Origin: an uncultured Candidatus Saccharimonas sp.
GTDB lineage: Bacteria; Patescibacteriota; Saccharimonadia; Saccharimonadales; AQU-01
Reading direction: 5' to 3'
DNA: 35,167 nt
NCBI GenBank assembly: GCA_943358095.1
Contig: CALRGT010000008.1
Location: 1 to 35,167 of the forward strand
Part shown: in pieces, positions 9,768 to 28,624 of the stretch
Position numbering within the stretch: position 1 is the stretch's first letter
Layout of the letters: the number at the start of each line of letters is the position of its first letter
The notes under the pieces: model-generated
The model's input: only the letters and a program-made list of their open reading frames with translations
The model's database searches: none
What the model was told of the DNA's origin: nothing
Program-made: the position numbers and the translations under genes

Positions 9768-10340
9768 ATGAAATATTATTTTGGAATCATTGCAGTCATC
9801 ATTATGCTATTTATTGGCGTTAAGTTGGCTTTTCCTGGTACCTCAAGCAAATCAACTACAAAAAGTCCTATTTCTGTAAAAAAAAGACTATCGGACTATT
9901 CGTCTACAAATGCTGAAGTAAGCGTGACTGTCGAAGGTCCAGTAGTAGGGCACGAGGTTCACAGCGCAATCCGTATTATTGTTGCCCGTGACGAAAGACG
10001 AGTTGAAATCATAAATGGCTACAACAACCTGATTGTTAAATCTAAGATTTACGACAACAACCAAACTGCTTTTGATGTATTTTTGCACGCTCTAGAGTAT
10101 GACTCTTATACGGCTGAAGTTAAGCCTAAGATTATCGACGACACAGGTGTTTGTGCTACTGGAACTAAGTATATTTACGAGCTTAAAAATACTGGAAATA
10201 AGGATACGGATAAAAGATTATGGTCAGTATCTTGTGGGGCAGGTATCGGTAATGCCGGCAGTAACGGTCCCTTAGTGCGTGATTTGTTCCAAAAGCAGAT
10301 CCCAGATTTTGGAACTGTTAGTCAGGGCTTGCAGTTCTAG
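9768..10340 (+). CDS. Membrane-anchored or exported protein of unknown function
   Basis: The N-terminus has a hydrophobic segment (YYFGIIAVIIMLFIGVKLAF, residues 3-22). A Ser/Thr/Lys linker and a beta-rich domain of about 150 residues follow, with strands such as EVSVTVEGPVVG and AIRIIVARDERRVEIING. Two cysteines (GVCATG and VSCGAG) could form a disulfide outside the cell. There is no lipobox, so the hydrophobic segment is either an uncleaved anchor or a signal peptide. The family was not recognised. Its TAG stop shares two bases (CTAG) with the stop of the convergent desaturase gene. Confidence 0.8.
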   Translation: MKYYFGIIAVIIMLFIGVKLAFPGTSSKSTTKSPISVKKRLSDYSSTNAEVSVTVEGPVVGHEVHSAIRIIVARDERRVEIINGYNNLIVKSKIYDNNQTAFDVFLHALEYDSYTAEVKPKIIDDTGVCATGTKYIYELKNTGNKDTDKRLWSVSCGAGIGNAGSNGPLVRDLFQKQIPDFGTVSQGLQF

Positions 10341-14737: not shown

Positions 14738-16342
14738 ATGAACCCCCAAGAGCCATTATCACTAGACCTATCTCATCCTGAACCGACAACTGTTCAGATA
14801 TCTACAGACCCAAGACAACAGGTGATTGATCGCCTTAAGGGTTCTGTGAATATTCTTATTACGGTTTCTCCCGACCCCTCTGTCGACCAATTAGCCGCCT
14901 CTATTGGCTTTACTTTGGCGTTAAACAAACTAAGTAAGCACAGTACTACAGTTTTTAGCGGCGCAACACCACCGGCAATAGATTTCTTGGAGCCTTCCAA
15001 GACTATTCAAAAAGACATAGATAGCCTTCGTGATTTTATTATTGCTCTAGACAAATCAAAGGCCGACAAACTCCGATATAAAGTAGAAGATCGCTTCGTT
15101 AAAATTTTTATCACTCCATATCACACAGATATTAGTGATAAGGATTTAGAGTTCAGTCAAGGCGACTACAACGTTGACGTAATAATCGCTCTTGGAGTTA
15201 CTCGACGAGAATATCTTGACCAGGCAATTACTGCACATGGTCGTATTTTGCACGACGCCACTGTCATTAGCATAAACAAAGATAAAAGTGACGACATAGG
15301 GGTTATTAATTGGCACGTACCAGGAGCTAGCAGTTACTGTGAGATATTAGTCGATCTGATTGAAAATCTAAAGACCGCTGAAACAGAATTGTTTGATGGG
15401 CAAATCGCAACTGCATTTTTGACAGGTATAGTCGCCGAAACTGAAAGATTTAGTAACGACAAGACTACTCCACAGACCATGAGTACCGCTGGAATATTAA
15501 TGAAAGCTGGTGCTAATCAGCAATTAATATCATCAAACTTAGAGTCTGCAGGTTCTGTGCCTAAAGCTCCAGCAACTAGTACATTATTATCGCCACCCCC
15601 AGCAGCTATTATAGAAGCTGTCCCTCCAGTGACTACGGAAACTCCAGTTACCGTTAGTGCAGCTCCTGCGATTGAAATTATTGCAGCACCTACACCAGAA
15701 ACTCCAGCCCCTCCAATAATCCAGCAATCAGTTCAGGCTATACCAGACAATACTTCGGTTAGTTCCGGTGGACCGCTTGGGGTTGGTGATGAAGAAGCGT
15801 CTCATATTTCTCTAGATATGCCAGAGTCGACAGAGCAGGCAACAGAACAGGCGCCGGAGCCCAAGATTGATAGTATAGACATAGACAGCGATGGTACTTT
15901 GCATAAATTTGGTGATCCAGATCCACTTGATGTAGTCGCTTCTTTGCCTGAGCCTAGTTTTGCGGACGCGAAACCTCCAGCAGTCGATCGTGTTGATCAA
16001 TCGCTTGAAGAGATAGAGAATGCAATTAACAGCCCACACCTAAAAGTTAACGGGGGCGAAACAGTGTTATCTCCAGAGCACGGCGGTCAACCAACTACAC
16101 CGATAGCAGCTCTCAATGCCATACCTATTGATCTGGATTTGGGCCATGACGGTCAGCCTGGACTTAAGTTACCAAATCCTTTTAAGCGACCTTTACCGAG
16201 CACTCCAGAACCAACTTCGGCACCGTTAATTAACCAGTTTAATCCCGCACCACCCCCTGTAATTACGCCGCCGGAGCCGATAATCACCACGCTACCGCCG
16301 CCGCCCGCCAGTCCACCACCAATGATTCCGCCAGTAGTATAG
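14738..16342 (+). CDS. DHH-fold phosphoesterase-like protein without the DHH motif, Pro-rich tail
   Basis: Residues about 25-280 follow the DHH/DHHA layout (RecJ, NrnA and c-di-AMP phosphodiesterase superfamily), but the metal ligands are replaced. Motif I reads VSPDPSVDQLAASIG where active enzymes have an HxxPDxDxxGS-like pattern. The DHH position reads VISINKDKSDD. The later segment FLTGIVAETERFSN...TPQTMSTAGILMKAGA is well kept. The fold is thus recognisable and catalysis doubtful. Residues about 285-534 are a low-complexity Pro/Ala/Glu/Thr tail ending in PPP runs, presumably disordered. An AAGAG ribosome site precedes the ATG. A role as a nucleotide-binding or scaffold protein is speculation. 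Confidence 0.75.
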   Translation: MNPQEPLSLDLSHPEPTTVQISTDPRQQVIDRLKGSVNILITVSPDPSVDQLAASIGFTLALNKLSKHSTTVFSGATPPAIDFLEPSKTIQKDIDSLRDFIIALDKSKADKLRYKVEDRFVKIFITPYHTDISDKDLEFSQGDYNVDVIIALGVTRREYLDQAITAHGRILHDATVISINKDKSDDIGVINWHVPGASSYCEILVDLIENLKTAETELFDGQIATAFLTGIVAETERFSNDKTTPQTMSTAGILMKAGANQQLISSNLESAGSVPKAPATSTLLSPPPAAIIEAVPPVTTETPVTVSAAPAIEIIAAPTPETPAPPIIQQSVQAIPDNTSVSSGGPLGVGDEEASHISLDMPESTEQATEQAPEPKIDSIDIDSDGTLHKFGDPDPLDVVASLPEPSFADAKPPAVDRVDQSLEEIENAINSPHLKVNGGETVLSPEHGGQPTTPIAALNAIPIDLDLGHDGQPGLKLPNPFKRPLPSTPEPTSAPLINQFNPAPPPVITPPEPIITTLPPPPASPPPMIPPVV

Positions 16343-26570: not shown

Positions 26571-26577
26571 CCAATAA

Positions 26578-26704
26578 AATTTATCATTTAACATTGACCA
26601 TTTGTCATTTATTTAGACATTTGGTCATTTAGTCATTGTAGCTTCAATGATAAATGCTAAATGACAAATTAATGATCAATGTATCAATGCATCAATGATA
26701 AATT
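26578..26704. repeat. Palindromic intergenic repeat, copy 2 (largest)
   Basis: Several inverted repeats share one axis. AATTTATCATT (26578-26588) pairs with AATGATAAATT (26694-26704), and ATTTGTCATTT (26600-26610) with AAATGACAAAT (26659-26669). CATTTAG (26626-26632) can pair with CTAAATG (26657-26663), and CATTG (26634-26638) with CAATG (26645-26649) around loop TAGCTT. Units like CATTTGTC recur throughout. It lies between ftsK and the rpsF promoter and shares 22 identical bases with copy 1. Confidence 0.8.
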
Positions 26705-26741: not shown

Positions 26742-26761
26742 TACCTAGCAATAAAAACTTT

Positions 26762-26811
26762 AGCCTATGCCTCTAATGGCCATAGGCTGGCTTGGACAAT
26801 TACGACCAAGC
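26762..26811 (+). promoter_or_regulatory. Two-hairpin leader of rpsF
   Basis: AGCCTATG (26762-26769) pairs perfectly with CATAGGCT (26781-26788). GCTTGG (26790-26795) pairs with CCAAGC (26806-26811) around a 10-base loop ACAATTACGA. They lie between the transcription start and the GGAAGGA ribosome site, where S6:S18 feedback elements occur in other bacteria. I could not match the known S6:S18 consensus, so an autoregulatory role is only inferred. Confidence 0.5.
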
Positions 26812-26832: not shown

Positions 26833-27228
26833 ATGAATCAATACGAAATCGCTGTGTTGTATCACCCAGATCTTGAAACAGATCTCGAAAAAGCTACCGT
26901 AAAGGTAGAAAAAATCTTCACAGATAACGGCGGTAATGTCGTTGCTGCTGATAATTGGGGCAAGCGCAAGCTAGCTTACACTATCAAGAAGCAAGACTTT
27001 GCTATCTACGTGATTTACACCGTAGATGTACCAGCCGAGATGGTGCGCAAGATAGAAGGACTTCTAAATATTACTGACGAAGTTGTTCGATTCTTGATCA
27101 CTAAGCCAGATTTGAACGCTATCGCTAAAGCAAATACTGCTAAGGCTGAGAAAGCCAAAAAAGCGGCTGAGCGTGGCGATCGTGGCGACGACGACCGTGA
27201 AGATCGTTCTACTCCAGAAGAAGAGTAG
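26833..27228 (+). CDS. rpsF: 30S ribosomal protein S6
   Basis: S6 pairs with S18 on the small subunit platform. The sequence has the S6 pattern: NQYEIAVLYHPDLETDLEKA, the core NWGKRKLAYTIKKQDFAIYVIY and GLLNITDEVVRFLITKPD. The C-terminus is a charged tail of Lys/Ala, then Asp/Glu/Arg (GDRGDDDREDRSTPEEE). The track start at 26767 lies within the leader hairpin. The ATG at 26833 follows GGAAGGATATCG and gives 131 aa. First gene of rpsF-ssb-rpsR. Confidence 0.96.
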   Translation: MNQYEIAVLYHPDLETDLEKATVKVEKIFTDNGGNVVAADNWGKRKLAYTIKKQDFAIYVIYTVDVPAEMVRKIEGLLNITDEVVRFLITKPDLNAIAKANTAKAEKAKKAAERGDRGDDDREDRSTPEEE

Positions 27229-27235
27229 AGAAGAC

Positions 27236-27363
27236 CAATTTAACATTTAACATCGACCATTTGACATTTATTTGGGCATTGACCATTTTCCATTGAAGCA
27301 ACAATGACAAAATGACCAAATGGTAAATAAATGATCAATGACAAATGATAAATTATAAATTGT
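27236..27363. repeat. Palindromic intergenic repeat, copy 3
   Basis: CATTTATTT (27265-27273) pairs with AAATAAATG (27325-27333). CATTG (27291-27295) pairs with CAATG (27302-27306) around loop AAGCAA, and AATTTA with TAAATT at the outer ends. Vocabulary (CATTTGAC, AACATT, AATGAC) and the central CATTG-N6-CAATG hairpin match copy 2, but the bulk sequence differs. The rest of the 389-base rpsF-ssb gap holds an AT-rich stretch with TAGTACTA and the ssb leader below. Confidence 0.75.
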
Positions 27364-27471
27364 CTTACCCCGTACCTTAATAAAATATGAATAAGTAGTA
27401 CTAATACTTGACTGTGGCTTCGACCAGAGTTACGGTATAAGTACAATTCAATAAACGCAGAATTCATCTAG

Positions 27472-27573
27472 CTTGTGACAAGTTTTGGTGTGTGACGAGG
27501 AACGTAAGCGAGCTGTATTTTAAGACAATACAGTGAACGCGTACCGGAGTCATAAAGCCAAAAATTGTCCAAG
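27472..27573 (+). promoter_or_regulatory. Long stem-loop leader upstream of ssb
   Basis: CTTG (27472-27475), ACAA (27478-27481) and TTTTGG (27483-27488) pair with CAAG (27570-27573), TTGT (27565-27568) and CCAAAA (27558-27563). Further in, TGAC (27493-27496) pairs with GTCA (27549-27552) and GCG (27508-27510) with CGC (27538-27540). The tip is CTGTATT (27513-27519) with AATACAG (27527-27533). The fold ends 44 bases before ssb, whose ribosome site is AAGGAGG. Confidence 0.6.
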
Positions 27574-27617
27574 ATAATGGATTATGCAGGACATAGTTCC
27601 TATAAAGGAGGATTAAA

Positions 27618-28103
27618 ATGGCACGATCATTCAATCAAGTAATATTAATGGGTAATCTCACCCGTGACCCTGAAGTAAGACAAATCCCTAGCGGGCAAGC
27701 AGTCTGTAACTTCAGTCTCGCACTCAATCGTAGCTTTAAAGGCGCAGATGGCGAGTGGCAGGAAGCGACCGATTATATCGACGTCGTAGCCTGGGGTCCA
27801 CTAGGCGAGCGTATCGCACAATATTTGACCAAGGGTAGCCGTTGTTTGGTGCAGGGAAGACTACAAAGTCGAGCCTGGGAACAAGATGGTCAGAAACGAA
27901 GTAAAGTAGAAGTTAACGCTAACGACGTAACTTTCCTAGACAGTCGTAGTGCTGGCGGCGATAGCGAGGCAGGATCAAGCTATAGCCAGGCTCCAGCAGG
28001 CGGCAATGACAAACCAAAACCTAGCAAGAAACCAGCTGGTGGGGACGTTGTAGTAGAAGACATTGGCGATGAGCCTATAAATTTAGACGACATCCCATTT
28101 TAA
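27618..28103 (+). CDS. ssb: Single-stranded DNA-binding protein
   Basis: SSB coats ssDNA in replication and repair. The N-terminal OB fold (about 1-110) is clear: SFNQVILMGNLTRDPEVRQI, VCNFSLALNRSF, DYIDVVAWGPLGERIAQYL and CLVQGRLQSRAWEQDGQKRS. A Ser/Gly/Pro/Lys-rich linker leads to the acidic tip LDDIPF, the conserved partner-binding peptide. It is 161 aa, and the start is fixed by the strong AAGGAGG site. The rpsF-ssb-rpsR order is the common bacterial one, but with long structured spacers on both sides. Confidence 0.97.
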   Translation: MARSFNQVILMGNLTRDPEVRQIPSGQAVCNFSLALNRSFKGADGEWQEATDYIDVVAWGPLGERIAQYLTKGSRCLVQGRLQSRAWEQDGQKRSKVEVNANDVTFLDSRSAGGDSEAGSSYSQAPAGGNDKPKPSKKPAGGDVVVEDIGDEPINLDDIPF

Positions 28104-28108
28104 GTCAT

Positions 28109-28216
28109 TTGTGAGTGCACGCTCTGGGCGAAAGTTCGGTTGTCAAAAAGCCTCGGCGTACGCTGGGTACGCCTCAATTTTTTGAAACCGGCTTTCATCC
28201 CAGATCGCACTACTCA
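28109..28216 (+). ncRNA. Long near-continuous hairpin after ssb
   Basis: Nested pairs, outside in: TTG/CAA, AGTGC/GCACT, TCTGGG/CCCAGA, GAAAG/CTTTC, CGGTT/AACCG, TCAAAAA/TTTTTGA and GGCGTAC/GTACGCC with loop GCTGG. This totals about 38 base pairs over 108 bases with small internal loops. It is far larger than a terminator and lacks a T-tail. It could be an RNA-processing or stabilising element, or a palindromic mobile-type element. No ORF is present. Confidence 0.6.
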
Positions 28217-28247
28217 AAATGCCTTAAAGCATAATAGAAATGTAAAT

Positions 28248-28276: not shown

Positions 28277-28285
28277 AAAGTATCG

Positions 28286-28397
28286 ATTTTGAGCCAAGGG
28301 TAATTTGTCTTTGAGACGAGGCTTCCATTTCGGACACGTAATAATTTTACGACGAAGAAATATCCTCGGCCTCCGAGCAAATTACCACTCTCAAAAT
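28286..28397 (+). promoter_or_regulatory. Structured leader of rpsR (S18), possible autoregulatory RNA
   Basis: Four helices are visible. P1 is ATTTTGAG (28286-28293)/CTCAAAAT (28390-28397). P2 is GGTAATTTG (28299-28307)/CAAATTACC (28378-28386). P3 is GAGGC (28318-28322)/GCCTC (28369-28373). The apical stem has TTTCG (28328-28332)/CGAAG (28353-28357) and CGTAA (28337-28341)/TTACG (28347-28351) with loop TAATT. The alternative CGAGG/CCTCG pairing competes with P3. The fold ends 23 bases before the ATG, just upstream of AAAGGAG, a position suited to translational control. Confidence 0.65.
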
Positions 28398-28420
28398 TGG
28401 TACACAGATAAAGGAGCATT

Positions 28421-28624
28421 ATGGCAAAGATATTTAAGCACAGGACAGATGTAGCATTTTTTGACTACAAGGATTACAAAACCTTGCAGCGCTACGTAAA
28501 CATGTACGGACAGATAGAAACTCGCAAAAAGACTGGTATTACTGAGGCTCAACAGCGTCGTCTTTCGATCGCTATTAAGCGCGCTCGTCACATCGCTCTG
28601 CTGCCATACGTCGCAAATAACTAG
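28421..28624 (+). CDS. rpsR: 30S ribosomal protein S18
   Basis: The protein is 67 aa and binds S6 and the central domain of 16S rRNA. It has the S18 pattern: FFDYKDYKTLQRYVNMYGQI, TRKKTGITEAQQRRLSIAIKRARHIALLPYV. The N-terminal arm is shorter than in E. coli and has no cysteine, so this is not a zinc-binding variant. The ribosome site is AAAGGAG. It completes the S6-SSB-S18 cluster. Confidence 0.96.
   Translation: MAKIFKHRTDVAFFDYKDYKTLQRYVNMYGQIETRKKTGITEAQQRRLSIAIKRARHIALLPYVANN

Follow-up and report, generated by a model that had tools for sequence, protein, structure and literature searches.

The S6:S18 leader (rpsF_leader; PMC4647458; Chlorobi variant PMC7247131) is a structured RNA of the rpsF-ssb-rpsR operon situated near a start codon. 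Known leaders of this type precede rpsF, and their cytosines contact S18 (PMC4647458). Among dispersed elements, the ERIC/IRU sequences of enterobacteria are intergenic, imperfect palindromes of 127 bp that are co-transcribed with their neighbours, whose orientation matters and for which effects on mRNA stability were reported (PMC2229807). REP/BIME elements are intergenic palindromes as well, often paired, and were proposed as mRNA stabilisers (PMC3733652); REPs measure 20-40 bp, carry GTAG or CGTC tags and go along with RAYT transposases.

Here, a hairpin upstream of rpsR was followed up in a stretch of 35,167 nt (the window) belonging to the 0.69-Mb genome bin G000 of a saccharibacterium, about half of which (353 kb) was read. 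The operon in the window is ordered rpsF (26833-27228, plus strand), ssb, encoding the single-strand binding protein (27618-28103, plus strand; Pfam SSB, 8.9e-37), and rpsR, encoding S18 (28421-28624, plus strand; Pfam Ribosomal_S18, 6.2e-18). The rpsR hairpin, termed E2, is real and evolutionarily maintained. As judged from the genes that its relatives precede, it is not an S18-specific switch or sensor.

Structure and stability of the hairpin upstream of rpsR

E2 is an imperfect hairpin of approximately 112 nt in the rpsR 5' region (28286-28397, plus strand; z = -7.7; nine-member family with compensatory changes), the outer stem of which reaches further, to 28280/28403. Between its 3' end and the rpsR ATG at 28421 there are 23 nt, as given in the first-pass annotation, and the helices of 8, 9 and 5 bp and the apical stem (CGTAA/TTACG in the window) described there were all recovered. 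The 5' arm of P1, ATTTTGAG (28286-28293, plus strand), pairs with CTCAAAAT (28390-28397), 94% of the cells being paired across the nine relatives, and is followed in the alignment by a conserved 3-nt bulge CCA (28294-28296, plus strand) of the GCCAAGGG motif. The 5' arm of P2, GGTAATTTG (28299-28307, plus strand), pairs with CAAATTACC (28378-28386); relatives have GGTCATTT/AAATGACC instead, a compensatory change. In case of P4, CGAGG (28317-28321, plus strand) pairs with CCTCG (28364-28368) in a conserved register, which is used by the minimum-energy fold of the window copy and by the relatives and is the weakest helix of the family (78% paired). GAGGC (28318-28322) and GCCTC (28369-28373) represent an alternative register, which is mutually exclusive with CGAGG/CCTCG and not kept in relatives. 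Thus the helix set proposed before is present in full, but its 5-bp member is without support in relatives, and the presumed switch between the two pairings falls away, CGAGG/CCTCG being the sole conserved register. Conserved sequence comprises UUUUGAGCCAAGGGU / ACCRCUCUCAAAA, and the near-invariant positions include GCCAAGGG and CC-R-CUC around the CCA bulge.

Folding of 28280-28405 yielded -48.7 kcal/mol compared to -23.1 +/- 3.3 kcal/mol for shuffled sequences (z = -7.69), and none of 200 shuffles was equally stable. Two hairpins nearby are similarly stable, one at 28095-28225 (z about -6.9), the other at 27450-27590 (z about -6.0). E2 ranks about 19th among the local hairpins in 353 kb of G000, and many of those that rank higher are tRNA/terminator palindromes. 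Since a few dozen intergenic hairpins in the examined half of G000 are comparably strong, stability alone is not diagnostic, but homology and covariation are. Exact or near-exact repeats of E2 were absent from this half of the genome. No U-run follows 28397 (E2) or 28226, the end of the hairpin E1 described below, so that an intrinsic terminator was rejected for both; a match of the terminator scan at 28155-28173 corresponds to the apical stem within E1. Phage carriage was likewise rejected, as the outer motif of E2 had no exact match in IMG/VR.

Several tRNA genes of G000, about 5 of 27 in the half examined, are followed by a terminator nested within an inverted copy of their own 3' half. The inverted copies comprise 11-19 exact nt, beginning at tRNA position 45-51 (41 for Gly). 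Cases were noted for 9798-9874 and 9235-9310 of L090 (G000:C3), 822-897 of L089 (G000:C2:20001-40000), and 15226-15302 and 15624-15699 of L098 (G000:C7). No convergent tRNA gene was called at the inverted copies for Gly, Phe, and Asp.

Relatives of E2 and the S18 leader question

The earlier suggestion of a separate rpsR leader class was compared with approximately 60 saccharibacterial rpsR loci. The hairpin was found at no other rpsR gene, the closest relatives by S18 sequence included; ssb and rpsR are mostly only 5-30 nt apart, which leaves no room for a leader. Short gaps and absence from the closest S18 relatives argue that E2 does not define an rpsR leader class. A blastn search in 393 genomes of the class revealed one full-length homologue (77%, E = 1e-15), which lies before ybaB-recR in another family. 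A covariance model of these two sequences (R1), which gives the other strong hairpins of G000 (353 kb covered) less than 12 bits, found a third copy before groES, and the three-sequence model (R3) found further ones. In total, nine copies are confident, located at rpsR (window), ybaB (L106), groES (L136), rplL (L206), tuf (L207), a KGG stress gene (L213), groEL (L209), khpA (L214), and in L208. Except for L208, where no same-strand gene follows the element, all copies (8 out of 9) share one orientation and stop 15-25 nt short of a start codon. This form occurs with one or two confident copies per genome and turns over within one genus, G065 having copies and its congener G362 none.

The helices covary in the relatives. 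In the nine-row alignment, 94.2% of cells are paired (78.7% shuffled), 22 of 38 pairs are doubly substituted (10.8 +/- 1.8 shuffled; 0 of 500 shuffles), and the covariation score amounts to 0.427 versus 0.151 shuffled and at most 0.119 when slid; these values come from rows fitted to the model, which favours structure. The first three sequences alone contain 12 doubly changed pairs, a number reached by 0 of 500 shuffles. Rfam 15 gave nothing above the gathering threshold at the elements in the window and 20 further E1/E2 loci, and the literature searched yielded no account of structured RNAs of this kind in Saccharibacteria. In seven control loci of other phyla no S6:S18 match was obtained either, and the negative result for S6:S18 may reflect the absence of that family from Rfam. 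Hence, of the undescribed ribosomal protein leader class, the structure, the absence from Rfam and the covarying helices hold, but not the specificity for S18: homologues precede ybaB, groES, groEL, rplL, tuf, khpA, and the KGG gene. Neither the position upstream of rpsF or the operon nor conservation there in relatives, as expected of an S6:S18 leader, was found for E2. Like that leader, E2 is a structured RNA near a start codon of the rpsF-ssb-rpsR operon, but only in the window genome is the gene that follows it rpsR; elsewhere it is found before other genes.

The canonical S6:S18 leader has a more suitable candidate in a hairpin with unpaired CC upstream of rpsF (26757-26795, plus strand), which is conserved and covarying in 12 Saccharibacteria. 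Its 8-bp helix is common to the window and 11 relatives (99% of cells paired; covariation 0.59 versus 0.35 shuffled), and the CC doublet is unpaired in most of the 12 hairpins. Rfam had no match here, as in the control loci.

Classical ribosomal protein leaders do exist in Saccharibacteria, as indicated by an Rfam L10 leader (RF00557) upstream of rplJ at 584-716 of L206. This leader is a separate family that shares a locus with an E2 copy, the latter being situated between rplJ and rplL.

The E1 family, its relation to E2, and dispersal

The first base of E1 (28104-28226, plus strand) directly follows the stop codon of ssb, and the element is a member of a dispersed family. It aligns with elements located after ssb in four other loci, and these five sequences already show 18 doubly changed pairs. 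The E1 model (R2) matches 54 of 393 genomes of the order Saccharimonadales at E <= 0.01, the E-values being rough owing to a short calibration and the related sequences not being independent. Up to at least nine copies occur per genome; nine candidates were scored in each, and copy counts are thus lower bounds. Among 230 genomes across the phylum, strong matches were restricted to the Saccharimonadales, and six weak ones outside (24-31 bits) are chance or distant members. In 69 copies, 89.8% of the cells are paired and 41 of 43 pairs doubly changed, with a covariation score of 0.61 versus 0.18 shuffled and at most 0.10 slid.

E1 usually begins 0-10 nt after the stop codon of a housekeeping gene. 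Of 72 copies, 53 have their 5' end between -20 and +12 nt relative to a stop codon on the same strand, whereas 3 have their 3' end equally close to a same-strand start; in 42 out of 50 cases the 5' end is nearer to the upstream stop than the 3' end to the next start (p = 1.2e-6). Hosts are ssb (11 copies) and genes for IF-1, IF-2, EF-Tu, EF-Ts, EF-P, an S1-type protein, S9, S15, S21, and a DEAD helicase, all contexts resting on simple ORF calls and best-scoring matches. SecA, a sigma factor, GreA, CTP synthase, and others were assigned by sequence reading. Genes of the kinds that host E1 or E2 are usually highly expressed, and this probably holds for the hosts here too. The copies measure approximately 91-126 nt, mostly 117-122 nt, and differ in their outer stems, and their consensus has no constant terminal tag of the GTAG/CGTC type. 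Outside the ends of the model, bases pair no more often than by chance, and a stem running outward through the stop codon was rejected on these grounds. In L147 (G341:C21) two copies are arranged in direct tandem, 4 nt apart (1501-1619 and 1624-1741).

A comparison of strands identifies E1 as the inverted homologue of E2. Several R3 matches coincide with R2 matches on the opposite strand; R3 scores the window E1 with 26.4 bits on the minus strand versus 14.5 on the plus strand, and R2 the window E2 with 16.2 versus 4.1 bits. As the wrong strand of a hairpin can score 30-40 bits with its own model, strand preference was read from between-strand comparisons only. A sequence-only E1 HMM built without the window matches E2 copies on the minus strand (8e-8, 2.6e-6, and 1e-5) and yields nothing better than 0.1 on their plus strand. 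Window E2 and L106 lack a significant match to this HMM and are joined via L136, L207, and L209. Since the orientation at stops is opposite to that at starts, the element turns the same end towards the gene in both settings, be it at the stop codon or the Shine-Dalgarno sequence. The window contains an inverted pair, ssb|E1> ... <E2|rpsR, and a similar pair is present in G079 (L145).

Further repeats and signals surround these genes. A long hairpin of approximately 120 nt in the ssb 5' region, E0 (27456-27582, plus strand; z = -6.0 for the fold of 27450-27590), matches the family models too weakly and ambiguously (9.2 and 4.7 bits) for it to be assigned to the family. In Saccharibacteria, the rpsF-ssb gap contains a conserved promoter-like TTGACG-N17/18-TAGGGT (TTGACT..TACGGT in the window, 27408-27436), and a conserved short hairpin GGACATAGTTCC / AAGACATATGTCTT is located directly 5' of the ssb Shine-Dalgarno sequence (27589-27600 in the window). 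In the window, E0 separates the promoter-like site from this short hairpin and the Shine-Dalgarno sequence. AT-rich inverted repeats with CATTTGACCATTTAAC-like units, a repeat type different from E1/E2, flank rpsF on both sides (26577-26690 and 27240-27360).

Three copies in G301 (L158, L192, and L193) share 98.3% identity over 118 nt but no relation in their flanks; hence the family moves or was recently duplicated. Multiple copies per genome at unrelated genes, together with near-identical copies in different flanks, are features of ERIC/REP-type elements, and a mobile-DNA origin like theirs is likely. Compared by description, E1/E2 resemble ERIC/IRU elements (PMC2229807) as dispersed intergenic imperfect palindromes of similar size, but are tightly pegged to stop and pre-start positions in opposite polarity, have conserved internal loops and extensive stem covariation, and occur in an unrelated phylum. 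With REP/BIME elements (PMC3733652) they share that they are intergenic palindromes, some of them paired, but at approximately 115 nt and untagged they differ from REPs. Y1 transposase (Y1_Tnp) genes are present in 5 of 12 carrier genomes, and no E1 element was found at 17 Y1 transposase loci. A REP/RAYT system was rejected in view of the missing linkage to a Y1 transposase, the length of approximately 91-126 nt and the missing GTAG/CGTC tag.

Possible functions at cistron boundaries

The family is dispersed, its pairing is under selection, and its placement at the boundaries of housekeeping cistrons is polar. We assign a probability of roughly 55% to the reading that an ERIC/REP-like palindrome family was co-opted here as cistron-boundary mRNA hairpins with a role in stability or processing. 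The elements, near-palindromic and approximately 110-120 nt in length, with the strong form seen only in Saccharimonadales here, are presumably transcribed with the operon once in place, and selection for pairing maintains them, as the covariation shows. In the E2 orientation they end just 5' of the Shine-Dalgarno sequence and start codon, and in the inverse E1 orientation they begin directly after stop codons. Most likely, such a hairpin shields or delimits the neighbouring coding segment at its ends in mRNA processing and decay, a role that we infer by analogy to that reported for ERIC (PMC2229807) and proposed for REP (PMC3733652). In the window, E1 would shield the ssb mRNA at its 3' end and E2 the rpsR mRNA at its 5' end, and the AT-rich linker of 59 nt between them is a likely cleavage or initiation region. 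Against this reading count the position of L208, which is not before a same-strand gene, and that no transposase is tied to the family. Moreover, a sequence-specific RNA function should not serve both orientations equally, and a role at the DNA level is possible.

Binding of S18 or the S6:S18 dimer to E2 with repression of rpsR translation would fit the location of E2 directly before the rpsR Shine-Dalgarno sequence and the conserved unpaired CC of its GCCAAGGG motif, a CC doublet being the S18 contact in rRNA and in the rpsF leader (PMC4647458). We regard it as highly improbable, with E2 missing at other rpsR loci and found upstream of groES, tuf, ybaB, and others, and with a conserved CC-bearing hairpin already situated before rpsF in the same operon. 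Rather doubtful is E2 as the cis-site of a dedicated trans-acting regulator, bound via the GCCAAGGG/CCRCUC internal loop, of a translation and chaperone regulon (rpsR, rplL, tuf, groES, groEL, khpA, ybaB, and KGG). The few copies per genome, the turnover between genes even among congeners such as G065 and G362 and the lack of a candidate binding protein stand against the uniform spacing before starts in one orientation, the coherent set of usually highly expressed genes, and the near-invariant unpaired and outer-stem sequence, which such a regulator would explain.

A purely selfish MITE/ERIC/REP-like element would have no host function, and its pairing would persist solely because the folded strand is what the mobilising machinery recognises. 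The near-identical, recent copies in unrelated places, the patchy presence among genomes and the imperfect palindromes, comparable in size to ERIC (elements of this kind are reviewed in PMC2229807), agree with this, but the close attachment to stop codons and to sites before starts in fixed polarity, the frequent housekeeping hosts and the lack of a linked Y1 transposase make it unlikely. Going beyond boundary hairpins as such, it is tempting to speculate that one mirror-oriented element acts as a general cistron-end marker, E2 before starts and E1 after stops, read by a dedicated factor or by E1-E2 RNA pairing and setting mRNA processing and stability genome-wide; we consider this possible, though less likely than not.

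As a caution for annotation, a lone hairpin before a ribosomal protein gene need not be an autoregulatory leader. Saccharibacterial genomes are tiny, yet some of them retain many intergenic hairpins of approximately 115 nt with maintained pairing. Placed at stop codons when they read one way and at translation starts when inverted, and hosted by translation and chaperone genes, these elements offer a testable handle on mRNA control in reduced bacteria.
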